Assembly: GCA_903916255.1 (NCBI GenBank)
Contig: CAIWVW010000086.1
Coordinates: 64,381-117,267, forward strand
DNA: 52,887 bases
Direction of reading: 5' to 3'
Source: an uncultured Bacteroidota bacterium
Lineage (GTDB): Bacteria; Bacteroidota; Bacteroidia; JABEUT01
Shown here piece after piece: positions 18,620-51,240 of the stretch. The first letter of the stretch is position 1, and each line of letters opens with the position of its first letter. The notes below the pieces were generated by a model that ran no database searches, was not told where the DNA came from, and worked only from the letters and a program-made list of their open reading frames with translations. A program made the translations under genes and the position numbers.

Positions 18620-21600
18620 ATGATTGCAGACACATTTATAAAACGGCCCGTCACAGCGATTGTTGTATCGCTTGTGTTAGCTATTATTGGCGCCATCTGC
18701 ATATTAAACCTTCCTGTTAACCAATACCCCGATATTACTCCGCCGGTGGTGCAGGTTACAGGACAGTATACCGGAGCAGATGCGACAACAGTGGAACAAA
18801 CTGTTGCCACGCCCATTGAAGAGCAGGTGAACGGTACGCATGGTATGGAGTACATGCAGAGCAACAGCGGCAATAATGGTGAGATGCAAATTAATACTAC
18901 ATTTAAAGTAGGTACTAATATTGACATTGCCACATTGGATGTTCAAAATAGGGTAAGTATTGCAACGCCTTTGCTTCCTGCTGCAGTAAGCCGTTTGGGG
19001 CTTACGGTCAGGGCCCTTAATCCCAGCGCATTAATGTTAGTTGCGCTTTATTCGCCCAACGGAACACATAATGTAACGTTTCTTGATAATTACACCAATA
19101 TTTTTATTCAGGATGCATTGCTGCGTGTTCCGGGGGTAGGAGCTATTACCACGCTGGCCGATAATTTCAGTATGCGGGTTTGGCTGAATCCGGATAAAAT
19201 GGCGGCGTACTCATTGTCGCCTACGGATGTTATAAATGCATTGAATGAGCAAAACCTTCAAGTGGCTGCAGGCTCTGCCGGTGTTCCGCCCCAGCAAAAA
19301 ACACAGACTTATGAATTAAGCATCCTTGTAAACGGCAGGTTGAGTACAGCCTCGCAATTTGGAAATATTATAGTTAAAACATTGCCTGATTCAGGTAAAA
19401 TGGTTTACCTGAAAGACGTCGGGCGTGTGGAATTGGGAAAGTTTACATATTCCAGCAATTCGTATGTGGATGATAAGCGCGCATCTATATTAACCATATA
19501 CCAGACGCCTGGCAGCAATGCATTGGAAACAGCCAATGCCATTACAAAGGAGTTGAATGAATTGAAAAAGTCTTTTCCAGCCGATGTGGATTATAATATC
19601 CCTTTTGAAACAGTTACAGTAGTGAAGGTTTCAATGCAGGAGGTGGTCGAAACGCTACTGATTGCGCTCTTTCTTGTTGCATTCGTAGTGTTTTTATTCC
19701 TGCAAAACTGGCGTGCAACACTTATCCCTGTGTTGGCGATTCCTGTTTCCATCCTTGGCACATTTGCTTTTTTTATTCCGCTCGGGTTTACGATTAACAC
19801 ACTAACCATGTTTGGTTTTGTACTGGCAATCGGTATTGTGGTGGATGATGCAATTATTGTGGTGGAGGCTGTTCAGCATTATATGGATTCACAAAAACTG
19901 CCTGTAAAGGAAGCTACCCATCGGGCCATGAATGATATTTCAGCCCCGGTAATTGCCATTGCATTAATTCTTGCATCAGTCTTCGTTCCGGTGGGTTTTA
20001 TTCCCGGAATAGTAGGGCGCTTATATCAGCAGTTTGCTATTACTATTGCAGTTTCTATTGTACTCTCGGCGTTTATTGCATTATCCCTGACTCCTGCTTT
20101 ATGCACGTTGCTTTTAAAGCCAAGGGTGGAAGGTGAAAAGACCAAAGGCATAAGTAAACTATTCGAAAAGTTTAATACTTGGTTCGATTCTATTACGAAT
20201 AGGTACTCCAAAGGAGTTCAAACAGGAATCCGCAAATCTAGATATGTGATAATATTGTTGTTGTGTATTGGAGTTGCTACCTTCTTTCTATTTCAACATA
20301 AGCCTTCCGGATTTATTCCGAGTGAAGACGATGGCCTTATTTATGTTACCTACGAATTGCCGGAGGCATCATCAACCAATCAGTCGGTGGATGTGATGAC
20401 CAAATTAATGAAAGTAGTGTCATCTACTCCGGGTGTTGAACACTATGCTGCCTTGGCTGGATTTAATGTAATAACGGGAGCAACTAAATCAAACAGCGGC
20501 ACTATTTACCTTCAGCTTAAACCATGGGACGACCGCAGTAAATCAAACGAAAAAATACCGAAGATTATTGATGTTTTACGCGACAGTATTGCCAAAGCAA
20601 ATATTAAAAATGCAAATATTGTAGTCATTCCGCCTGCGCCTATTCCGGGTATCGGACAAACAGCCGGATTCAGTTTCCAGATTGAACAGCGAAATACGAA
20701 TGATGATGTGCATCAATTTGAAGATGTGGTGAAAAACTTTGTGAATGAAGCAAATAAAAACCCTGCCATTACCGGTGCGTTTAGTTATTATTCTGCCCAC
20801 ACTCCAAGCTATAACCTTACCGTGGACAGGGAAAAATGCAAAAAAATGGGTGTGCTTATTTCCGATGTTTTTACAGCCATTCAGGTTTATATGGGCAGTT
20901 ATTATGTAAACGACTTTACATTATACAACCGTACTTTTCACGTGGTGGTTCAGGCAGATACTACCTACAGGAGAATGATTCAGAACATGGATAAATATTA
21001 TGTGAGAAATCAAACAGGGGAGATGCTGCCTTTGAGTTCGCTTATAAGTTATCAGCCATCAATTTCGGCTCCATTGTTATCGCACTTCAATATATTCCGC
21101 TCGGCAGAAGTGGATGGAACATCGCCGGAAGGATACAGCAGTGGCCAATCTATAGATGCGTTAAAACAAATAGCTGATAAAGTATTGCCGCAAGGCTATG
21201 GTTATGATTTCTCCGGATTGAGTTACGAAGAAATACAGGCCGGAACGCTAACGATATATATATTTCTGTTTTCATTGCTCTTTGTTTTTCTTTTCCTGGC
21301 TGCGTTATACGAAAGTTGGTCAGTTCCCTTTTCTGTATTGCTGGCAGTGCCTATTGGAGCATTTGGCGCCATACTAACACTCATATTTATTCCAAGCCTT
21401 ACAGATAATGTGTATGCACAAATAGGGCTTATTACCCTCATCGGACTTGCCGCAAAAAATGCAATTTTAATTGTGGAATACGCTAAAATACGGCTGGATA
21501 TGGGAGAAGACCTGATAGAATCTACCATTGAAGCGGTAAAACTGCGGTTACGCCCTATTGTTATGACATCGCTTGCATTTATTTTAGGGGTAATGCCGCT

Positions 21601-21817
21601 CGTTTTTGCCAGCGGTGCGGGTGCTGTTGCGCGCCGCACCATTGGTGTAACTGTGCTAGGCGGAATGGTTGCCGCCTCTTCATTAGCCATATTTATTGTT
21701 CCTGTATTGTTTGTGGTAATTGTAAAAATTGCCTACGGAAAAAAAGAACTGGAATGGTTAGTGGCGCATAAGGATGAATTGGCTGCTAAGGCAAAGGAAT
21801 CTGAACAGAAGCATTAA
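18620..21817 (+). CDS. RND multidrug efflux permease, first copy (HAE1 family)
   Basis: 1065 residues, AcrB-sized. It starts MIADTFIKRPVTAIV, the standard N-terminal helix. The twelve-helix, two-large-loop arrangement is evident. The proton-relay residues are present: Asp409-Asp410 in GIVVDDAIIVVEAV (TM4) and Lys946 in AAKNAILIVEYAK (TM10). The trimer-forming porter motif NQYPDITPP and FIPGIVGRLYQQFAITIAVS are conserved. It is expected to be a drug/proton antiporter working with the adaptor and TolC encoded upstream. It starts 21 bases after the adaptor stop. Confidence 0.95.
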   Translation: MIADTFIKRPVTAIVVSLVLAIIGAICILNLPVNQYPDITPPVVQVTGQYTGADATTVEQTVATPIEEQVNGTHGMEYMQSNSGNNGEMQINTTFKVGTNIDIATLDVQNRVSIATPLLPAAVSRLGLTVRALNPSALMLVALYSPNGTHNVTFLDNYTNIFIQDALLRVPGVGAITTLADNFSMRVWLNPDKMAAYSLSPTDVINALNEQNLQVAAGSAGVPPQQKTQTYELSILVNGRLSTASQFGNIIVKTLPDSGKMVYLKDVGRVELGKFTYSSNSYVDDKRASILTIYQTPGSNALETANAITKELNELKKSFPADVDYNIPFETVTVVKVSMQEVVETLLIALFLVAFVVFLFLQNWRATLIPVLAIPVSILGTFAFFIPLGFTINTLTMFGFVLAIGIVVDDAIIVVEAVQHYMDSQKLPVKEATHRAMNDISAPVIAIALILASVFVPVGFIPGIVGRLYQQFAITIAVSIVLSAFIALSLTPALCTLLLKPRVEGEKTKGISKLFEKFNTWFDSITNRYSKGVQTGIRKSRYVIILLLCIGVATFFLFQHKPSGFIPSEDDGLIYVTYELPEASSTNQSVDVMTKLMKVVSSTPGVEHYAALAGFNVITGATKSNSGTIYLQLKPWDDRSKSNEKIPKIIDVLRDSIAKANIKNANIVVIPPAPIPGIGQTAGFSFQIEQRNTNDDVHQFEDVVKNFVNEANKNPAITGAFSYYSAHTPSYNLTVDREKCKKMGVLISDVFTAIQVYMGSYYVNDFTLYNRTFHVVVQADTTYRRMIQNMDKYYVRNQTGEMLPLSSLISYQPSISAPLLSHFNIFRSAEVDGTSPEGYSSGQSIDALKQIADKVLPQGYGYDFSGLSYEEIQAGTLTIYIFLFSLLFVFLFLAALYESWSVPFSVLLAVPIGAFGAILTLIFIPSLTDNVYAQIGLITLIGLAAKNAILIVEYAKIRLDMGEDLIESTIEAVKLRLRPIVMTSLAFILGVMPLVFASGAGAVARRTIGVTVLGGMVAASSLAIFIVPVLFVVIVKIAYGKKELEWLVAHKDELAAKAKESEQKH

Positions 21818-21822
21818 TTAAA

Positions 21823-24800
21823 ATGATTGCCGATACATTTATACGAAGGCCGGTTACTGCAATCGTTATTGCTTTGGTGATAGTTATCCTTGGCGCGATT
21901 TGCATTTATACACTCCCTATAAATCAGTATCCAAACATAACCCCTCCGGGCGTATCCGTCAGCACCAACTATACCGGGGCTGATGCGCAGACTGTAGAAC
22001 AAAACGTGGCCACACCTCTTGAAGAAGCTATCAATGGTGTGAAAGGAATGGAGTACATACAAAGCAACAGTACAAGCACAGGGGCTTTGTCTATCAACAC
22101 TACTTTTAAAGTGGGCACGAATGTCGATATTGCCGCACTCGACGTTCAAAACCGGGTAGGTATCGCAACTCCTTTACTTCCGGCAGATGTAAGCCGATTG
22201 GGAATAACGGTGCGTGCAAAAAATACCAGCGCCTTAATGCTGGTAACACTTTATTCGCCTAAGGGAACGCACAATATCACCTTCTTAGATAACTACAACA
22301 ACATTTATATAATGGACGCTCTGCTGCGTGTTCCGGGCGTGGGCGATATTACAACCCGTGCCGATAACTTCAGTATGCGTATATGGCTCGACCCGAATAA
22401 AATGGCATCTTACTCCATAACCCCGCAGGACGTAAAGAATGCGCTGGATGAACAGAATGTTGAAGTGGCTGCAGGTGCAATAGGGGCACCACCACAGGAG
22501 GTAAACCAGACTAATGAGATGACCGTATTGGTAAATGGCCGACTAAATACAGTTACTGATTTTGAAAATATTATAGTTAAAACTACCCCTGCAACAGGCG
22601 AAATGGTTTTCCTGAAAGATATTGCCCGTGTTGAGTTAGGTAAGTTTACTTTTTCCAGCAATTTCTTTGTAGATGGAAAAAGGGCATCCCTGTTGCTCGT
22701 GTATCAAACCCCCACAAGTAATGCACTGGATGTGGCAAATGGCGTATATGCCGCGATGGAAAAACTAAAAAAAACATTCCCCGAGGATATAGATTATAAA
22801 GTTCCTTTCGAAGCGGTTACCATTGTTAAGGTTTCTATGCAGGAAGTAGTTAAAACATTAATAATTGCCTTGCTATTGGTTGCATTTGTCGTATTCCTTT
22901 TTTTACAAAACTGGCGCACGGCAATTATTCCGATTCTTGCTATTCCTGTTTCGATTATAGGCACTTTTATATTTTTTGTTCCTCTGGGTTTTACCATAAA
23001 TACCCTTACTATGTTTGGCTTTGTTCTTGCTATTGGTATAGTGGTGGATGATGCAATTATAGTTGTGGAAGCAGTGCAGCATTATATCGATGTGGAAAAA
23101 CTTTCGCCTGTCGAAGCTACAAAGCATGCCATGAAAGATATTACTGCACCTGTAATAGCAGTAGCATTAATACTGGCAGCTGTATTTGTTCCGGTAGCAT
23201 TTATACCGGGTATTGTTGGAAGGTTATATCAGCAGTTTGCCATAACAATTGCAGTCTCCATTTTAATTTCGGCATTTATCGCACTGTCATTAACGCCTGC
23301 ATTATGCACCTTGCTTTTAAAGTCGCATATAATCGATGAAAAATCTACAGGGATAAATAAATTTTTCTTTTGGTTTAATAGGGGCTTTGCCAAGTTTACA
23401 AAGTCTTATTCGAATGGGGTTAAACATGGCATTCATGGGGCAAAATATGTTATTGTACTATTGATATGTATTTGTGTAGGTGCATTTTTCTTATTTAAGT
23501 ATACTCCGTCCGGATTTATTCCGAATGAGGACGTTGGACGGTTACAGGTTACTTATGAATTGCCGGAAGCCTCATCTACTATTCAGTCCGTAGAGTTTAT
23601 TAGCAAACTTATGAAAATTGTGGGCAGTACTCCGGGAGTATTGCATTATGGCGCACTGTCGGGGTTAAATGTAAGTAACGGCGCAGCTAAATCGAACAGC
23701 GGCACCATATTTGTACAGCTGAAACCCTGGGATGAGCGCAAAGCGGATAGCGAAAAGGTAACGGGCATTACTACAGGTATTATTGCATCAATGTATAAGC
23801 GAATAGCCCATGCTGATTTGAAAAATGGAAAGGTTAATATTCTTCAACCTGCTTCTATTCCCGGTATAGGCCAATCTGCCGGGTTCTCTTTTCAGATTGA
23901 GCAGCGAAATACAAATGATGATGTGCATGCATTTGAAAAAGTAGTAAACAAGTTTGTTGCGGAAGCCAATAAAAATCCGGCCATTTCCCGCGCTATTAGT
24001 TATTATTCGGCACATACGCCAAGTTATGACCTTACGGTTGACAGAGAGAAATGCAAAAAAATGGGAGTTAATATTGCCGATGTGTTTTCAACCATACAAG
24101 CCTACATGGGCAGTTCGTATATAAATGATTTTACCCTGTATAATCGTACCTATCATGTCGTTATTCAGGCCGACACTATTTTCCGTAGGGTAGTTACAGA
24201 CATGGATAAGTATTATGTAAGAAATCAGAATGGCGCAATGCTTCCGTTAAGTTCACTCATCCATTACCAACCAATAGCCGCAGCACCTGTAATCTCCCAC
24301 TTCAATATCTTCCGTTCTGCTGAAGTGGATGGCAGTTCAGGCCAGGGGTATAGTACGGGACAGACAATTGAAGCATTGAAAGAAGTTGCAGATAAGGTTT
24401 TACCCCAGGGTTATGGCTATGAATGGTCGGGATTAAGTTATGAAGAAATAGTTGCAGGCGGACAAACCTTGTATATATTTATTTTTTCGTTGACATTTGT
24501 TTTTCTCTTCCTTGCTGCTTTGTACGAAAGCTGGTCGGTTCCCTTTTCGGTTATGCTTTCGGTGCCTATAGGTGCTTTTGGTGCAATCTTAACTCTTTTT
24601 TGCATTATGATGTTCAGTAAAAATACCGCATTAAGTAATAATGTTTACGCACAAATTGGATTAATAACGCTTATCGGTTTGGCAGCTAAAAATGCTATTT
24701 TGATTGTTGAGTACGCCAAGGTGCGAGTAGATGCAGGCGAAGAATTAATACAATCTACTATTGATGCGGTATCTCTCAGGTTGCGACCGATTATTATGAC

Positions 24801-25032
24801 TTCATTGGCATTTATATTTGGAGTTTTGCCGCTGGCACTTGCTTCCGGTGCAGGTGCGGTTGCCCGTCAAACTATTGGTATTACGGTGCTGGGAGGGATG
24901 ATTGCTGCATCATCGCTCGCTATTTTTATTGTACCCGTACTTTTCGTTGTGATAATAAAAATATCCTACGGTAAAAAGAAACTGGCCTGGCTGGCCGAGC
25001 ATCGGGAAGAGTTAAAAGGAAATTCCAATTAA
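21823..25032 (+). CDS. RND multidrug efflux permease, second copy (HAE1 family)
   Basis: 1069 residues and highly similar along its whole length to the preceding pump (for example MIADTFIRRPVTAIVIALV, NQYPNITPPGVSV). Asp409-Asp410 and Lys956 keep the proton relay, so it should be active. It starts 5 bases after the first pump. The periplasmic loops differ more than the membrane parts, as expected if the copies diverged in substrate range. Near the C-terminus it has a longer loop (MMFSKNTALSNN) before TM10. Either two homotrimeric pumps share one adaptor, or they form a mixed trimer like MdtB/MdtC. Confidence 0.95.
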   Translation: MIADTFIRRPVTAIVIALVIVILGAICIYTLPINQYPNITPPGVSVSTNYTGADAQTVEQNVATPLEEAINGVKGMEYIQSNSTSTGALSINTTFKVGTNVDIAALDVQNRVGIATPLLPADVSRLGITVRAKNTSALMLVTLYSPKGTHNITFLDNYNNIYIMDALLRVPGVGDITTRADNFSMRIWLDPNKMASYSITPQDVKNALDEQNVEVAAGAIGAPPQEVNQTNEMTVLVNGRLNTVTDFENIIVKTTPATGEMVFLKDIARVELGKFTFSSNFFVDGKRASLLLVYQTPTSNALDVANGVYAAMEKLKKTFPEDIDYKVPFEAVTIVKVSMQEVVKTLIIALLLVAFVVFLFLQNWRTAIIPILAIPVSIIGTFIFFVPLGFTINTLTMFGFVLAIGIVVDDAIIVVEAVQHYIDVEKLSPVEATKHAMKDITAPVIAVALILAAVFVPVAFIPGIVGRLYQQFAITIAVSILISAFIALSLTPALCTLLLKSHIIDEKSTGINKFFFWFNRGFAKFTKSYSNGVKHGIHGAKYVIVLLICICVGAFFLFKYTPSGFIPNEDVGRLQVTYELPEASSTIQSVEFISKLMKIVGSTPGVLHYGALSGLNVSNGAAKSNSGTIFVQLKPWDERKADSEKVTGITTGIIASMYKRIAHADLKNGKVNILQPASIPGIGQSAGFSFQIEQRNTNDDVHAFEKVVNKFVAEANKNPAISRAISYYSAHTPSYDLTVDREKCKKMGVNIADVFSTIQAYMGSSYINDFTLYNRTYHVVIQADTIFRRVVTDMDKYYVRNQNGAMLPLSSLIHYQPIAAAPVISHFNIFRSAEVDGSSGQGYSTGQTIEALKEVADKVLPQGYGYEWSGLSYEEIVAGGQTLYIFIFSLTFVFLFLAALYESWSVPFSVMLSVPIGAFGAILTLFCIMMFSKNTALSNNVYAQIGLITLIGLAAKNAILIVEYAKVRVDAGEELIQSTIDAVSLRLRPIIMTSLAFIFGVLPLALASGAGAVARQTIGITVLGGMIAASSLAIFIVPVLFVVIIKISYGKKKLAWLAEHREELKGNSN

Positions 25033-36641: not shown

Positions 36642-36847
36642 GCTTTTGCAGTGGTGAAATTTAGAAATCTATCCTCAGGTTATCAAAACCTTCGTCGGTT
36701 TTTGATGATATAAATCACTTAAAAGGTTAGACAGAAAAGGTACTTTTCCTCTTGTCCTAGGCAATAATCTATAATATTTGGAACTTTTTTGAGTTATTGT
36801 CGTAATAAATGTAGTTTTACACTAACAAAATCAATATTATAAAATAA

Positions 36848-39304
36848 TTGTACAAAACATTTCTTATATTAGGTGGTGACGGTTATTTCGGTTGGCCATT
36901 GGCCATGCGCCTTGCAGTGCAGAACCCGGAAAGCAAGATTATTATTGTTGATAATCAATGGAGGAGAAATGCCGTAAAAATACAGGGGTCTGATTCTATA
37001 ATTCCAATTGCGACTCCGCAAGAGAGAATAGAGGCATTTAATAAAATACATTCATTAAGTAACATCCGGTATTTTGATATGGATGTGAACAGTTCCGGGT
37101 TAGAGGAACTGATACGATACGAACAGCCGGGAATAATATATCATTTAGCACAGCAATGTTCCGCACCCTATTCCATGAAAGGGGAGGAGGAAGCCATGTA
37201 TACCCTTTTGAACAATGAAGCAGGCAATATGCGCCTGTTATGGGCAGTAAAGAAACATGTACCCGATACACATATTATTAAACTAGGTTCTTTTGGAGAG
37301 TATGCCAAGGGGGGAATCGATATTTCAGAAGGATATTTTCAGCCCGAATATAAAGGTAAAAAGGCCAGTAAACTTATGCCTTTTCCGCGCGAGGCAGACG
37401 ATATTTACCACGTATCTAAAATTAATGATACCAATTACGTGGCTATGGCATGCCGCAAGTGGGGGCTGAAAATTACCGATGTTATGCAGTCTACCATATT
37501 CGGAAATATTACCGATGAAATGATGAACTGTCCGGAACTGTATACTCGGTATGATTATGACGAAGCTTTCGGAACAGTATTAAACAGGTTTTTGGCACAA
37601 GTAGTAGTTGGATACCCGCTTTCGGTATACGGCACCGGGAAACAACGTACCGGCCTAATGTGCCTGAAGGACTCTGTAAATTCCTTAGCCGGATTGGCGG
37701 AGGAAACTCCTTCCCCCGGAGAACATAAGGTAATTAACCATGTTACTGTCACCAATTATTCCATTAATGAATTGGCTGAATCAGTACGCAGCATTGCCGA
37801 ACAGGAAGGATATAAAGTAAGTATTAAACATGATGCGTTCGACCCCCGCATGGAACGGCCCGACCAGAAACTGGAATACGGTATTAATACCGATTATATA
37901 GATGAAAAAAGGGTGCATTCGCCATTTGCAGATATTATAAGAGAAACATTAAAATTAATTGCGAAACATAAAGACCGAATATCCCTTAATGTATTTCCTC
38001 CTGCCATTAACTGGGCACACGACGAAAAGATGAAGCAAAAAGTGCTCATTAAAGATGAAAAAATTGTAATTCTTGAAGAGGAAAGCAAGAAGGAAGAAAG
38101 CATAGATAATGAAGCATACTGGGCAAAATTCAGGAAAGAGAATTTTCACTCCCGTCGCATTAATTTTAACCCTGGAACATTAGGTACGCCTTCTGAAAGG
38201 GTAAAGCATGCCCGGATTTTTACGGCCAAGTCAGATGAGATGGACGCCCATCCATTAGGGTTGTATGAATTCGGAAGAAAGTGCCAGAATGAAATTCAGG
38301 ACCTTTGCAAAGAGATTTGGCACTCACCCGGATACTATTCCATGGTAGTGCATGGCACTTCTCAAACGCTAAACCTGATTGCCTTGTCGATGCTTCGTGT
38401 TTTTCATAGTGAGGGTAAAGCACCCTATCGAATAATGACTACTGAGCATGAACATATTGGCGGAATAGGCTGCTTTGAAAATATCCCTGAGTACGAAGTT
38501 CACTATATAGATGATAAAACACTTGATGATAAAGATGCCTTAAAAAAGAAAATTGAACAGATAAAACCGCACATGGCATTTTTCTCCCATGTATATTACG
38601 ACACAGGAAGCAAAACTCCGGCTGCTGAATGGGCAAGTATTTTCAAAAAATATGCACCTGAATGCAAGGTGTTCATTGACGCGGCCCAATCGCTCGGAGT
38701 TATGGATTTGCCTTTCGGCGATGCCGATGTTATACTGGGCAGCGCCCATAAATGGCTGTTCGGCCCGCATGGAGGCGGATTAATATGGATGAAAAACAAT
38801 TTTAAAAACTGGATTCAATCTCTTTACTGGAGCGGGCATGGACTGATTGCTGACGCCGATTTGGAATCGCTAAGTATTCCGGGTGGACAAGATTTTATGC
38901 TCTATCCGGCTATGGTGGAAGCACTGAAGCTATATAAAAGCGTGGGCAAGGATACTATAATGCAGCGCTCGGCTATGCTTGCAAACTGGTTTCAGAAAAA
39001 ATTGACTGATGCAGTTTCGCCATTAAAATCAGATTGTGTGTTCATGAATACTACCATGAATTCACCGGTTATCACTATTGCATTCCAGGAGTTTGACCCA
39101 TATCCGCTTTACAAATCACTCAACGACCGCCATATTCATGTTAAGTGCATTAAGGAGCATAAAATAGGAGATAAGGTATATCATATTCTCCGCTTTGGGT
39201 TTCCTTATTTTGAAACACTAGACAGGCTTGACTATGCTGTTGGCCAAATTAAGCAATTGGTAGCGGCTGAAACAGAACACAAAGAATTGAAATTCGGCAC
39301 CTGA
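36848..39304 (+). CDS. Fusion of UDP-sulfoquinovose-synthase-like SDR and class V PLP enzyme
   Basis: 818 residues in two enzyme parts. Residues 1-395 resemble SQD1/Agl3-type UDP-sulfoquinovose synthases: the NAD loop GGDGYFGW (9-16), QCSAPYSM (103-110), KLGSFGEY (145-152), the YHVSK catalytic pair Tyr187/Lys191, and FGTVLNRFLAQVVVGYPLSVYGTG. A charged linker (396-435) leads to a class V aminotransferase fold (436-818): GTSQT (503-507), TEHEH, IDAAQ with Asp611 for the PLP ring, and SAHKWLFGP with Lys635 as Schiff-base lysine. The canonical RTGHHC desulfurase loop is absent; the matching place reads VKCIKEHK. The start is TTG, fixed by a stop codon directly before it and by the GGDGY motif nine residues on. 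The fold calls are firm; the joint reaction is inference: sulfite made by the PLP part could feed sulfosugar synthesis. Confidence 0.85.
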   Translation: MYKTFLILGGDGYFGWPLAMRLAVQNPESKIIIVDNQWRRNAVKIQGSDSIIPIATPQERIEAFNKIHSLSNIRYFDMDVNSSGLEELIRYEQPGIIYHLAQQCSAPYSMKGEEEAMYTLLNNEAGNMRLLWAVKKHVPDTHIIKLGSFGEYAKGGIDISEGYFQPEYKGKKASKLMPFPREADDIYHVSKINDTNYVAMACRKWGLKITDVMQSTIFGNITDEMMNCPELYTRYDYDEAFGTVLNRFLAQVVVGYPLSVYGTGKQRTGLMCLKDSVNSLAGLAEETPSPGEHKVINHVTVTNYSINELAESVRSIAEQEGYKVSIKHDAFDPRMERPDQKLEYGINTDYIDEKRVHSPFADIIRETLKLIAKHKDRISLNVFPPAINWAHDEKMKQKVLIKDEKIVILEEESKKEESIDNEAYWAKFRKENFHSRRINFNPGTLGTPSERVKHARIFTAKSDEMDAHPLGLYEFGRKCQNEIQDLCKEIWHSPGYYSMVVHGTSQTLNLIALSMLRVFHSEGKAPYRIMTTEHEHIGGIGCFENIPEYEVHYIDDKTLDDKDALKKKIEQIKPHMAFFSHVYYDTGSKTPAAEWASIFKKYAPECKVFIDAAQSLGVMDLPFGDADVILGSAHKWLFGPHGGGLIWMKNNFKNWIQSLYWSGHGLIADADLESLSIPGGQDFMLYPAMVEALKLYKSVGKDTIMQRSAMLANWFQKKLTDAVSPLKSDCVFMNTTMNSPVITIAFQEFDPYPLYKSLNDRHIHVKCIKEHKIGDKVYHILRFGFPYFETLDRLDYAVGQIKQLVAAETEHKELKFGT

Positions 39305-46077: not shown

Positions 46078-46278
46078 GTGAAATAATTTATAATTTTAGT
46101 AATATATAATTAACATTGTATTGTGTTGATTATCATTTGAATGAATGGCAATTAAAATAAACTGACAAAAATCATGTGTCTGATAGTAATAATAAAATAA
46201 TAAAATCGTTCTTTGTATGTATTATTGCTTTTAACCTTTAAACAGGACGCATATAACATATAAATACCACTGCCCTTG

Positions 46279-49200
46279 ATGAAAAAAACTCTACTCCCCC
46301 GCATTCTTGTTCTATTTATTTTATCAGTTCTTTTTGGTAGAACTTCCGCACAATGCCCTACTTGCCACGACGGTGCGCATTGGTCTGTAATAAATGACAG
46401 TACCCACCACCTTCCCCCAAACGTTACCCCAAATGGAAATGATGCGATGGGAACAGCCCCCAGTTTCATATTTCAAAATATTTGCGGGCTTAATTATGTC
46501 ACAGTAAGCGTTGAAACTACCACACGGGAGTCCTCTAATCCGGGTACCGGTTTTCCCGCCACCTTTACCCTGCCGGCTTGTCTTGGCGCGCCATTACATG
46601 CTTACCTTTTCTGGGGTGTTTCCTATTGGGAAGCTTCTCCGCCCAACTATACCGTTACCATTACAAATCCTGTACCTAATACAACAAACTACCCTACTGT
46701 AAATAATATTGGAACAGGGCCATCCAAATGTTGGGGCGAAGTTGGAACCGCTGCGTATGAATGTGATGTTACCGGCTCTCTGGGTGTAGGCGGCCTATAT
46801 TCAGTTACAATTAACGGGCCTTCCACATCAAGCGATGAAAAAGAAATCGATGGATTTACACTTGTATATATATACAACAGCGGCGCAGCCTATAGCGGCA
46901 GTATAGCCCTTTGGGATGGGGACGATATTTCGTCTTCAGGCAGCCCGCTTTCAGCTACCCTTAACGGATTTAGCGTATGTGCTGCACCGGCCACCGCTTC
47001 CGGATTTACCTCCTGCGGCGATGAACAAGCCAACATTTCTGCCACACATACCGATTTAATTAATGGAACTACCGGAACATTCAATAATAGTTTTTGGAAC
47101 ACGGATATTATTCCGTTAACCTTAACAGCCGGACAAACGACCTGCGCTTATGAGCCCTATTCGAGTGATGCCGGCGATTGTTATTCATGGATTTTATCCG
47201 GCTTGTACTGGCAAAATACAAGTTGTGTTGTGTGCACCCCAACGGCGTTAACGGTAACAATACCTACGTTTGTTAATCCTACTTGCGGAAACAACAATGG
47301 CAGCGCCGATGCTACCGTAACCGGAGGAACACCACCTTACACGTATTTATGGACCCCGGGCAATCAAACTACTGCCAATGCTACCGGCCTAAGTGCAGGA
47401 ACCTATACTGTTACTGTTGAGGACGCTACCGGATGCACCACTGTAACCGCAACTGTTACTCTCACCACATCTCAACTCACCGTTAATGCAAATACAACTG
47501 CCAATGAGCCTTGCAATGGCAATTCTGTTGGAAGTGCCAGTTCAACAGTTACAGGCGGAACAGCCCCTTTTACATATACATGGACGCCTGCCGGCGGAAC
47601 AAATGCTAATGCCAGCGGCCTGAGTGCAGGAACATATACTATAACCGTAAAAGATAATTCCGGTTGTACCGGTACAGCAACAGTAACGATTACTCAACCG
47701 CCACCTATAGTTGTTACAGCAACCCCGGTAAATATTTTATGTAATGGCGGAGTTGGCAGCGCTACTACGGTGGTAACGGGAGGAACCCCTAATTATACGT
47801 ATGCGTGGACGCCAATAGGCGGAACAAATGCAACAGGTACCGGGTTAACAGTGGGAACATACACTGTAAATGTTACTGATGCAAATGGTTGTACAGGCAG
47901 TACTACAGTTGCTATCACCCAGCCACCGGTTCTTACAGCAACTACTACCATGACACAGGCTAACTGCGGTAATGCGAACGGAACTGCAACCGTAACAGCC
48001 GGGGGTGGAACACCAAACTACACATATTCTTGGGCGCCATCGGGCGGAACAAATGCAACGGCTACCGGATTAACTGCCGGTTCCTATACTGTAACTGTTA
48101 CCGATGCCAATTCATGCACAACAACTTCTGTTATTGTTGTTACAAGTTCAGGAGGAATAACAGTTACTATGGGAGCGAATACCAATGACCCTTGCAATAA
48201 CAGCACAAGTGCAACTGCAACTGTTAATGTAACGGGTGGTACAATGCCATACACTTATGCGTGGACGCCAACGGGAGGAACCAATGCTACAGGCACAGGA
48301 ATGACTGCGGGCACATATACCGTAACGGTTACCGATGCGAATGGTTGCAATGGAACAGCTACTGTAACTATCACTTCACCGCCTGCATTAGTGGCCACTA
48401 TGGGCGCACCTACAGACCCAAGTTGTGCAGGTGGAAACAATGGCAGCGCAACCGTGGCAATGGCAGGAGGAACACCCCCATATACCTATGCCTGGACACC
48501 GATTGGCGGAACAAATGCTACAGGCTCAGGCTTATCTGCCGGAACCTATACCGTGAATGTTACCGATAATAATGGCTGTACAACTTCTGCCACAGTTACT
48601 TTAGTTGACCCACCGGCAATAAATATTATTACCACAACTGTTGCTGCCAACTGTAATCAGAGTGATGGTTCAGCTACTGCCGCAGTAACTGGCGGCACCG
48701 GAGCATACACATATTCATGGGCGCCTGTTGGCGGAACAAACGCAACAGCAACGGGCCTTAGCGCAAATACATATACTGTTACAGTTACCGATAATAATGG
48801 GTGTACGCAAACGGCTACCGCCGTGGTAAGCAACCTTAATGGCGAAACAGCAACAATGGGTGTAATAACCAATGTAAGCTGCTTTAACGGAACGAATGGA
48901 ACAGCTACCGTAAATGTGGTGGGCGGCTCGGCGCCATATACCTATTCATGGGCTCCTTCAGGGCAAACTAATGCTACTGCCACAGGGCTAAGCGCCGGTA
49001 CGTATGTAGTAACTGTTACAGATGCGAACGGATGTACATCATTGGCAACAGCTATAATAACAATGCCTTCACAATTGGTAGCAACTATGGGTGCCGCTAA
49101 TAATATTTTATGTGCCGGAGGCACCGGAAGTGCTACGGTAACCGTAACAGGAGGAACAGGGCCTTATACCTATGCCTGGACTCCTGCCGGAGGTACCAAT

Positions 49201-51240
49201 GCAATGGGTACAGGATTAACAGCTAATACCTATACCGTAAATATTGCCGATAATAATGGCTGTACAACATCATCCACGGTTACCATAACTGCGCCACTTG
49301 CGCTTACAGCAACCATTTCTGCTACCAATAACGTAAGTTGCAGCGGTGGTAATAATGGAAGCCTTGCCGTTACAGCTGCCGGTGGAACTGCACCCTATAC
49401 TTACGCGTGGACTCCTGCCGGAGGCAGCAATGCCATTGCAAATAGCCTAACAGCAGGCATCTATACTATTACAGTAACGGATGCCAATGGCTGTACGGCT
49501 ACTGCCACAGGCACAATTAACCAGCCAAATGCTATAACTATTACAACTACCTCTACACAAACTTCCTGCCAGCCTACAGGTACTGCCACTGCCACAGCAG
49601 CCGGAGGAACGGCTCCCTATACATACAAATGGACACCGTCAAATCAAACAACCGCTACGGCCACCGCGTTGGCTGCAGGAACCTACACGGTAACGGTAAC
49701 TGATAACGATGGTTGTACAGAAACTGCAACTGCAACAGTTACCAGCCTGAATGCAGTTACGGCAACTATGGGGGCCATCGTAAATGTTACCTGTTTCGGA
49801 GGCAATAATGGAACAGCCACAGTTACCGCTGCCAGCGGTACTGCACCCTACACATATTCCTGGTCTCCAATAGGAGGGACAAATGCAACAGGTTCCGGAC
49901 TTTCGGCCGGAACGTATACCGTTACCGTAAAAGATAATAATGGCTGTTCAGCTACAGCTGCCGCAACAATAGCCCAACCCAACCAAATGCTGGTGAGCGC
50001 AACCGGAACACCATCGGTTTGCTCGGGCCAGCCTGCTTCACTGGATGCTACTGTTAACGGCGGAACGGGACCGTATGTTTACACATGGACACCTTTGGGT
50101 GGGAATGGTTCCAGTGCCAGCGTAACGCCCCTTACCACTACTACTTATACTATTAGTGTTGCCGATGCAAATGGATGCAGTGCAAGCACTACAATTACAG
50201 TAAATGTTAACCCGGTTCTTGCCCTTTTAGTTTCAGGCTCTACAGCTGTTTGCCCGGGTAGTACTGCTACTTTTACTGCTACAGGTTCGGGAGGAGACGG
50301 AATATATACCTATGTATGGTCCAACGGGGCACACACACAAACTATATCAGTTACACCAGATTCAACAGAGGTTTTGACAGTAACACTTTCGGATGGCTGT
50401 TCAACACCATTAACGGTACCTGTTACAGTTACGGTGGACCCATTGCCAAATGTGAAATTTGACGAAGACATTGCGCAAGGTTGTTATCCATTATGTGTTC
50501 AATTCCACGACCTATCAACTATCAGCAGTGGTGGAATGGACAAGTGGGTATGGTATTTTGGCGATGGTGACAGCGTTTCTGTAAAAACCCCTACTTATTG
50601 CTATAATACTCCCGGAAATTATAATGTAACGCTTACGGTAGTTTCAGACAGTGGTTGCAGCAGCAGTTTGAGGGTGCTAAACCTGATTAATGTATACTCG
50701 CACCCAATCGCAAGCTTTACCTATTCTCCCAATCCGGTAACTATTCTGACGCCCACTCTTCAGTTTACCGATAACAGCAGCGACCCTTATGGAATTATGC
50801 AATGGCAATGGTCGTTTGGCGATGGCACCGATTCGGCAAGTAGTTTGCAAAACCCAAGCCACACCTACCAGGATACAGGCACATTTTGCGCCAAGCTGGA
50901 AGTAGTTGATGTGCATGGTTGTGTAGACACTACCACTAACTGCATAGATATTCAGCCTTTATTTACATTCTATATTCCTGATGCGTTTACACCGAACAGC
51001 GATGGAATTAATGATGTGTTTTTACCTAAGGGCACGTATATAAAGACCTATGAAATGTATATTTTCGACCGTTGGGGAATGGAATTATTCCACACTACAA
51101 ATATTTTAGACGGATGGGACGGAACAGTTAATGGCGGTTCCACGGTAAGCCAGGAAGACACGTATGTTTACCTGATTAAAGTAACAGATACACAAGGTAC
51201 AGACCATAATTATACTGGCAAGGTTAGTTTGATTAAATAA
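46279..51240 (+). CDS. Giant SprB-repeat adhesin with PKD domains and type B T9SS sorting domain
   Basis: 1653 residues from the ATG at 46279; a TTG lies directly before it. Signal peptide to about residue 25 (TSAQ-CPTC). The N-terminal domain (about 25-320) is Cys-rich and beta-rich, with LYWQ at its end, and is shared with the next gene. Then come 12 SprB-type repeats of about 75 residues (each G-G-T-x-P-Y-T-Y-x-W, G-T-Y-T-V-x-V-x-D-x-N-G-C), two Ig-like repeats, two PKD domains (WYFGDGD, WSFGDGT) and a CHU_C gliding-associated C-terminal domain (YIPDAFTPNSDGINDVF, IFDRWG, DGWDG). The sorting domain is type B. SprB in Flavobacterium is the moving gliding adhesin; here the role is attachment or gliding by inference. 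Confidence 0.93.
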   Translation: MKKTLLPRILVLFILSVLFGRTSAQCPTCHDGAHWSVINDSTHHLPPNVTPNGNDAMGTAPSFIFQNICGLNYVTVSVETTTRESSNPGTGFPATFTLPACLGAPLHAYLFWGVSYWEASPPNYTVTITNPVPNTTNYPTVNNIGTGPSKCWGEVGTAAYECDVTGSLGVGGLYSVTINGPSTSSDEKEIDGFTLVYIYNSGAAYSGSIALWDGDDISSSGSPLSATLNGFSVCAAPATASGFTSCGDEQANISATHTDLINGTTGTFNNSFWNTDIIPLTLTAGQTTCAYEPYSSDAGDCYSWILSGLYWQNTSCVVCTPTALTVTIPTFVNPTCGNNNGSADATVTGGTPPYTYLWTPGNQTTANATGLSAGTYTVTVEDATGCTTVTATVTLTTSQLTVNANTTANEPCNGNSVGSASSTVTGGTAPFTYTWTPAGGTNANASGLSAGTYTITVKDNSGCTGTATVTITQPPPIVVTATPVNILCNGGVGSATTVVTGGTPNYTYAWTPIGGTNATGTGLTVGTYTVNVTDANGCTGSTTVAITQPPVLTATTTMTQANCGNANGTATVTAGGGTPNYTYSWAPSGGTNATATGLTAGSYTVTVTDANSCTTTSVIVVTSSGGITVTMGANTNDPCNNSTSATATVNVTGGTMPYTYAWTPTGGTNATGTGMTAGTYTVTVTDANGCNGTATVTITSPPALVATMGAPTDPSCAGGNNGSATVAMAGGTPPYTYAWTPIGGTNATGSGLSAGTYTVNVTDNNGCTTSATVTLVDPPAINIITTTVAANCNQSDGSATAAVTGGTGAYTYSWAPVGGTNATATGLSANTYTVTVTDNNGCTQTATAVVSNLNGETATMGVITNVSCFNGTNGTATVNVVGGSAPYTYSWAPSGQTNATATGLSAGTYVVTVTDANGCTSLATAIITMPSQLVATMGAANNILCAGGTGSATVTVTGGTGPYTYAWTPAGGTNAMGTGLTANTYTVNIADNNGCTTSSTVTITAPLALTATISATNNVSCSGGNNGSLAVTAAGGTAPYTYAWTPAGGSNAIANSLTAGIYTITVTDANGCTATATGTINQPNAITITTTSTQTSCQPTGTATATAAGGTAPYTYKWTPSNQTTATATALAAGTYTVTVTDNDGCTETATATVTSLNAVTATMGAIVNVTCFGGNNGTATVTAASGTAPYTYSWSPIGGTNATGSGLSAGTYTVTVKDNNGCSATAAATIAQPNQMLVSATGTPSVCSGQPASLDATVNGGTGPYVYTWTPLGGNGSSASVTPLTTTTYTISVADANGCSASTTITVNVNPVLALLVSGSTAVCPGSTATFTATGSGGDGIYTYVWSNGAHTQTISVTPDSTEVLTVTLSDGCSTPLTVPVTVTVDPLPNVKFDEDIAQGCYPLCVQFHDLSTISSGGMDKWVWYFGDGDSVSVKTPTYCYNTPGNYNVTLTVVSDSGCSSSLRVLNLINVYSHPIASFTYSPNPVTILTPTLQFTDNSSDPYGIMQWQWSFGDGTDSASSLQNPSHTYQDTGTFCAKLEVVDVHGCVDTTTNCIDIQPLFTFYIPDAFTPNSDGINDVFLPKGTYIKTYEMYIFDRWGMELFHTTNILDGWDGTVNGGSTVSQEDTYVYLIKVTDTQGTDHNYTGKVSLIK
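47241..49980 (+). repeat. Array of 12 SprB-type coding repeats
   Basis: Each unit is about 225 bp, with conserved words such as GGCGGAACAAATGC and ACCGATAATAATGGCTG. Units differ at many silent sites, so the array is old and probably stable. Such arrays are prone to recombination and to assembly collapse. Confidence 0.85.

Follow-up and report, generated by a model that had tools for sequence, protein, structure and literature searches.

The gene considered here occupies positions 36848-39304 on the forward strand of a 52,887-nucleotide stretch of DNA (hereafter the window) from an uncultured Bacteroidota bacterium (contig CAIWVW010000086.1). It is a single unbroken open reading frame of 818 codons that starts with TTG directly after an in-frame TAA, the opposite strand being rich in stops. 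Its product joins an extended short-chain dehydrogenase/reductase (SDR) half, related to the uridine diphosphate (UDP)-sulfoquinovose synthase SQD1, to a class V pyridoxal 5'-phosphate (PLP) enzyme half, which constitutes a new domain architecture inside known superfamilies, with no second lineage found. An earlier note on this DNA had described such a frame with the motifs GGDGYFGW, QCSAPYSM and YHVSK, a charged spacer, and intact Asp611 and Lys635 in the PLP half; all of these were located as described, with the residue numbering right and nine acidic and six basic residues in the linker region 395-425.

The gene and its parts

The features of the fusion gene to which the following sections refer are listed here by window coordinates.

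36848..39304, forward strand: complete fusion gene, 818 amino acids, TTG start
36810..36847, forward strand: upstream leader, common to the window and the related-genome copy L021, up to the TTG: TGTAGTTTTAC ... TATAAAATAA (upstream sequence comparison)
36848..38032, forward strand: SQD1-like extended-SDR half, residues 1-395 (NF041015, 341 bits; 1qrr, 2e-67; TM 0.93)
36872..36895, forward strand: GGDGYFGW, residues 9-16, NAD-binding, equivalent to the GxxGxxG motif of SQD1
37157..37159, forward strand: Cys104, at the position of SQD1/Agl3 Arg101 (alignment; Agl3 R101A is inactive, PMC4388408)
37289..37303, forward strand: Ser148-Phe149-Gly150-Glu151-Tyr152 (in SQD1, Thr145-Met146-Gly147-Glu148-Tyr149)
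37406..37420, forward strand: YHVSK, residues 187-191, with catalytic Tyr187 and Lys191 (alignment)
38033..38107, forward strand: charged linker, approximately residues 396-420, fast evolving, with indels (copy comparison; model confidence)
38108..39262, forward strand: C-terminal class V PLP half, approximately residues 421-805 (Pfam Aminotran_5; PDB matches PvdN, Egt2, C-DES and desulfurases)
38453..38455, forward strand: His536, aligned to the histidine that stacks on the PLP ring in the ExEH motif of SufS, IscS and CsdA (alignment)
38678..38689, forward strand: Asp611-Ala-Ala-Gln614, PLP-binding D-x-A-Q (alignment)
38741..38755, forward strand: Ser632-Ala-His634-Lys635-Trp636, Schiff-base lysine motif (alignment)
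39140..39154, forward strand: VKCIK, residues 765-769, a short stretch at the desulfurase RxGHHC position, with Cys767 common to L021

Searches with the full length and with each half returned the SQD1 family (NF041015, 1qrr) for the one and class V enzymes for the other. Pfam reports Epimerase over residues 6-286 (3e-10) and Aminotran_5 (PF00266) over 499-766 (1.5e-18; 2.6e-19 in a second scan), and the NCBIfam model for UDP-sulfoquinovose synthase, NF041015, spans residues 5-379 (341 bits, 5.7e-102). The peptide QQCSAPYS occupies residues 102-109, and in the AlphaFold2 (AF2) model the predicted local distance difference test score (pLDDT) stays below 50 across linker residues 391-413.

Conservation of the fusion and kinship of its halves

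The fusion is real, conserved and strongly selected in both halves. The genome of the window (G000) carries one copy, and the congeneric genome G002 (record KR3_bin-0479) carries two: a full-length 813-residue homologue with 80% identity (L021) and a diverged copy (L022) that matches over residues 1-729 and from there runs on in frame as a foreign tail, on a short contig that ends at this point. Among the three fusion copies, synonymous sites are saturated (pS 0.72-0.88) and dN is 0.08-0.16 in both halves, a combination that indicates purifying selection on both, as one polypeptide; the linker is fast evolving. The TTG start is supported by the leader that the window shares with the related-genome copy (TGTAGTTTTAC ... 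TATAAAATAATTG). The downstream neighbours, a DUF4010/MgtC-like gene and PPK2, are likewise common to the window and L021, and the upstream genes differ. The diverged copy (L022:412-3998) lies directly behind an IS66-like transposase, by sequence reading, and would be explained either by disruption of a paralogue or by a join made in assembly.

The SDR half is SQD1-like. Its top PDB match is SQD1 (1qrr, 2e-67, 33% identity), and its AF2 model, with a pLDDT of about 90 over this half, finds SQD1 first in Foldseek (TM 0.93, rmsd 1.6, E 2e-38), with UDP-sugar epimerases next at about 1e-18. The triad Ser148/Tyr187/Lys191 and His99 are present in all three fusion copies, Glu151 and Tyr152 are kept, and 37 of 39 family-wide conserved columns are retained in comparison with 75 other SQD1-like proteins. 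In trees that include Arabidopsis SQD1 and Sinorhizobium meliloti SqdB, not Agl3, the SDR half is split from the epimerase outgroups at 98/98, so that the grouping with ordinary epimerases, which the earlier note had set against its assignment, was not found. An ordinary UDP-sugar epimerase or dehydratase is ruled out by this tree, by the NF041015 match and by the Foldseek values of 2e-38 against about 1e-18. The 341 bits fall below the NF041015 cut-off of 575 bits; this was discarded as a disproof of membership, since S. meliloti SqdB (332 bits) misses the cut-off too.

With SQD1, SqdB and Agl3 the fusion thus has in common the fold, the NAD motif, the Ser/Thr-Tyr-Lys triad, the equivalents of His96 (Agl3 His95), Glu148 and Tyr149, and, with S. 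meliloti SqdB, an equally high NF041015 score. It differs from them in Cys104, in a Phe, an Asp and a QRTG at otherwise characteristic positions, in its C-terminal PLP enzyme, in its placement outside the tested clade, and in a single-gene locus that lacks sqdBDC partners.

The PLP half, judged by its sequence, is a class V enzyme with its catalytic equipment and not a canonical desulfurase. In alignment with Escherichia coli SufS, IscS and CsdA it keeps His536, Asp611, Gln614, Ser632, His634, Lys635 and the C-terminal Arg, and shares with them the fold-type-I PLP core together with ExEH, DxAQ, S-x-H-K and GPxGxG. It differs from these enzymes in HKW, in an identity of only 16-20% to CsdA and SufS, and in the lack of a catalytic-cysteine motif: neither the class I desulfurase signature SSGSAC nor its class II counterpart RxGHHC (PMC8300815) is present, VKCIK standing there instead. 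THVSN, moreover, has lost its Asn, the sequence reading SHVYYDTG.

NCBIfam class V matches of this half are weak (EgtE 39 bits, SufS 37, PvdN 33), and its PDB profile matches are PvdN (38 bits), Egt2 (36), C-DES (29) and desulfurases (21-25); apart from PvdN, these closest structures and families mostly cleave C-S bonds (Egt2/EgtE, C-DES, SufS). PF00266 is the sole Pfam family reported, and DegT_DnrJ_EryC1 (PF01041) gives no match. Synechocystis C-DES, Egt2/EgtE and PvdN, the best though weak matches, resemble the PLP half in having no desulfurase cysteine loop, and C-DES additionally shares DxAQS and HKW...GPxGxG with it, whereas all of them are standalone and without a sugar-nucleotide domain. 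The nearest standalone relatives are secreted Bacteroidota class V-fold enzymes (G085, L142:6695-7993; G269, L136), none of them close, the best scores in the Bacteroidota profile search being 64 bits for G085 and 47 bits for G269. They resemble the PLP half in EHEH (G085), AQ, HKW and a W-x-x-x-R N-terminus, and differ from it in having twin-arginine translocation (TAT)-like signal peptides, by sequence reading, and no SDR; in the tree the PLP half joins the TAT-type enzyme of G085 with 82/87 support.

The loop cysteine of desulfurases is dispensable for sulfinate chemistry. The earlier note had argued from the missing RTGHHC loop towards a lyase or desulfinase, and the loop is indeed missing, as is SSGSAC. 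The argument itself is weak: E. coli CsdA, the cysteine-sulfinate desulfinase of classical standing, carries RAGQHCA (PMC8300815 Table 1), so that loop absence alone does not speak for a desulfinase.

Sulfur supply, proposed chemistry and competing readings

Genome profile searches found neither an NIR_SIR sulfite reductase nor a 3'-phosphoadenosine-5'-phosphosulfate (PAPS) reductase (CysH) in G000 (97% complete) or G002 (98%). The sole PAPS_reduct matches are CysD-sized (316 residues), and that of G000 scores as CysD and stands beside CysN (G000:C141 = L138:6670-8934). Without either reductase the fusion-bearers would form no assimilatory sulfite, and their activated sulfate seems to go to sulfotransferases, with four matches in G000 and eight in G002, and not to sulfite. 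Of the congeners without the fusion, G006 (99% complete) holds CysH and an NIR_SIR-type reductase whose best-scoring models, those of NirA and sulfite reductase, are all below cut-off, and G010 (84%) holds an NIR_SIR-type reductase; a reductase is also missing from further congeners that have no fusion, most of which are less complete, and few genomes were compared. This gene content fits an enzyme with its own sulfur source.

SQD1 and Agl3 first oxidise the sugar at C4 and then remove water from C5-C6, and the ene so formed takes up sulfite; Agl3 without sulfite releases UDP-glucose-5,6-ene (PMC4388408). How sulfite is transferred to sulfoquinovose synthases in vivo was stated as unknown in 2015, and plant SQD1 was found with the large partner Fd-GOGAT (PMC4388408). 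What the data show is the identity of the domains, the conservation of residues, selection on both halves and the gene content of the genomes; from these we infer each chemical step of a tentative scheme, to which we give somewhat less than an even chance, in which the protein would be a bifunctional sugar-nucleotide enzyme whose PLP half gives sulfur in cis to the 5,6-ene sugar of the SDR half. By analogy with SQD1 and Agl3, the SDR half with NAD would oxidise a nucleotide hexose, probably UDP-glucose, at C4 and eliminate the C6 hydroxyl to form the 5,6-ene, to which a nucleophile would add at C6. The PLP half, as its family and the genome suggest, would bind a cysteine-derived amino acid as an aldimine and free its sulfur by C-S cleavage, and this sulfur would be passed across the linker to C6. 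Sulfur delivered as sulfite would yield UDP-sulfoquinovose, and sulfur in a lower oxidation state, which is thinkable because Cys104 takes the place of an Arg that the tested sulfite-using enzyme cannot do without, would yield a 6-thio or 6-sulfino sugar. As a member of a superfamily of C-S-cleaving enzymes, the fused PLP enzyme would be the simplest donor module. A slightly bolder and correspondingly more doubtful form of this proposal is that the protein would be the first self-contained synthase of C6-sulfur sugar nucleotides, operating in organisms without assimilatory sulfite, its product perhaps a thio- or sulfino-sugar made with the use of Cys104.

Several observations weigh against a sulfur-transferring bifunctional enzyme. 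On the side of the SDR half, all three fusion copies have Cys at SQD1 position 101, where 39 of the 75 other SQD1-like proteins have Arg and the remaining 36 have Pro; Arg101 is conserved in SQD1, SqdB and Agl3, and alanine mutants of Agl3 at Arg101 and Met145 are inactive (PMC4388408). In addition, Met146 is replaced by Phe149, Ser180 by Asp, and QTRG by QRTG. The Arg101 proteins, including Arabidopsis SQD1 and S. meliloti SqdB, form one well-supported group (99/86, 96/89), with one Pro101 viral-contig protein nested within it; the fusion SDR half lies outside this group as sister (100/98-99) of the T4-like-phage proteins L061, L037 and L043, and forcing it into the group is rejected (approximately unbiased test, AU p 0.0019). 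Long branches call for the usual care with this result, and the fusion and phage SDRs may have been drawn together by long-branch attraction; the Ser of position 145 and the Asp of position 180, which both share, are independent hints for their grouping. The phage proteins themselves are standalone, with Pro101, Asn96 and no PLP partner. Taken together, the loss of Arg101, the clade placement, Ser180Asp and QRTG imply that the sugar, the nucleotide or the nucleophile may differ from those of SQD1. On the side of the PLP half, the C-S lyase matches amount to 29-40 bits over about 100-150 residues, the branch is very long (3.8 changes per column), and the AF2 pLDDT is 42 for this half alone and about 55 in the full model, at which the active sites are not placeable. 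Furthermore, no glycosyltransferase, sulfur gene or polysaccharide cluster adjoins the fusion gene in the window. Finally, no cysteine dioxygenase was found, which leaves cysteine sulfinate without an obvious source and cysteine, cystine, S-sulfocysteine and cysteate as possible donors.

The SQD1-type assignment of the earlier note therefore holds as kinship (98/98; Foldseek 2e-38) and fails as membership of the tested sulfoquinovose-synthase clade; both the exchange of Arg101 for Cys104 and the placement outside that clade had been missed. Pro101 occurs in both haloarchaeal SQD1-like proteins examined, and this haloarchaeal group is named SqdB in the literature (PMC4388408), so that the loss of Arg101 need be no bar to sulfoquinovose synthesis.

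The same observations lend weight to a sulfur-free reading, unlikely yet to be taken seriously, in which an SQD1-like dehydratase or epimerase is joined to an unrelated PLP reaction (e.g., PvdN-like or epimerase-like) and the fusion serves co-regulation or physical association only. The lost Arg101 agrees with it, and so does the finding that the nearest SDR relatives, genes of T4-like phages, have Pro101 and lack a PLP partner; further points in its favour are the N-terminal E-x-(Y/F)-W and the HKW that the PLP half shares with secreted class V enzymes and the presence of PvdN among its best structural matches. It accounts less readily for a linked pair that has outlasted deep divergence without damage to either site, and the lack of assimilatory sulfite in both genomes fits a built-in sulfur source better.

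Somewhat less probable again is sugar amination, in which the SDR half would make a 4-keto sugar nucleotide, SQD1 itself proceeding via a 4-keto intermediate (PMC4388408), and the PLP half would transaminate it to an amino sugar. Sugar aminotransferases of PLP fold type I classically act on such 4-keto nucleotides. These two steps are often paired in gene clusters. Against this, the family match of the PLP half is to class V Aminotran_5 and not to the PF01041 sugar aminotransferases, no sugar aminotransferase of class V is known to us, and the fusion gene has no polysaccharide cluster around it.

That the protein is an ordinary UDP-sulfoquinovose synthase acting on free sulfite, with the PLP half in a regulatory or scaffolding role, would agree with the SQD1 fold and catalytic triad and has a parallel in the binding of plant SQD1 to Fd-GOGAT (PMC4388408). 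It is improbable given the absence of Arg101 and a host that, without CysH, makes no sulfite from sulfate, and the PLP half is unlikely to be a mere scaffold, since all its PLP ligands are conserved under selection. An assembly artefact or decaying gene, to which the metagenome-type contigs and the foreign tail of L022 at a contig end might point, is effectively ruled out by the second-genome evidence, namely a stop-free, full-length copy with 80% identity in an independently assembled species and a third, diverged copy, and by purifying selection, dN lying far below dS in both halves; the assembly artefact that the earlier note had named as a possible refutation is thus set aside.

Distribution, viral relatives and further observations

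Among everything scanned, G000 and G002 alone were found to carry the fusion. The exact-peptide scan covered 84,980 species and matched just the two G002 loci; the profile searches covered about 800 genomes of Bacteroidota together with plasmid, phage and viral-contig sets, and fusions may therefore exist in other phyla. Profile searches detected SQD1-like proteins in 1 of 395 Bacteroidota and in 3 of 395 Bacteroidia, the latter being G000, G002 and G449. Plasmid records yielded SDR-only or PLP-only matches below 38% identity, phage records yielded no match in the profile search, and viral contigs held no relative of the whole fusion or of the PLP half. No fused or adjoining class V partner of an SQD1-like protein occurred in 80 viral or 6 plasmid loci. 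In agreement with the earlier note, which knew of no enzyme with this pairing, no description of an SQD1-like/class V PLP combination was found in the open-access literature.

The SQD1 of G449 (L123:7986-9173) is a standalone Arg101-type protein near the plant enzyme and lies in a Bacteroidia polysaccharide cluster; standalone enzymes of this type are otherwise very rare in Bacteroidia.

Recombinant SQD1 is weakly active (PMC4388408). One purifiable protein would let the donor and acceptor chemistry of sulfoquinovose-type synthesis be studied together. Equally relevant to annotation, 36 of the 75 compared non-fusion SQD1-like proteins, many of them from viral contigs, lack Arg101, and databases may call them sulfoquinovose synthases without evidence.

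Among viral contigs, 136 stretches encoding SQD1-like proteins were found and 80 kept (L030-L109). Their Arg101 and Pro101 proteins fall into largely separate groups, and the Pro101 proteins may be mislabelled sulfoquinovose synthases. In L061 (7998-9176) and L037 (7998-9152) the SQD1-like gene has T4-like replication genes around it, read from their sequences as clamp loader, DNA polymerase and RecA/UvsX-like. A plasmid of Pseudonocardia autotrophica (L026:7992-11467) carries an Arg101-type SQD1-like gene about 1.2 kb before a gene of the PLP-dependent cysteine synthase family and a major facilitator superfamily transporter, a pairing that is a possible second case of SQD1 with PLP sulfur chemistry.

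Elsewhere in the window, positions 46276-51240 encode a 1654-residue SprB-repeat/PKD protein that bears a type IX secretion signal (CHU_C) and probably serves as an adhesin, either in gliding or at the surface, and positions 18620-25032 encode two successive resistance-nodulation-division (RND) efflux pump subunits of the AcrB family.

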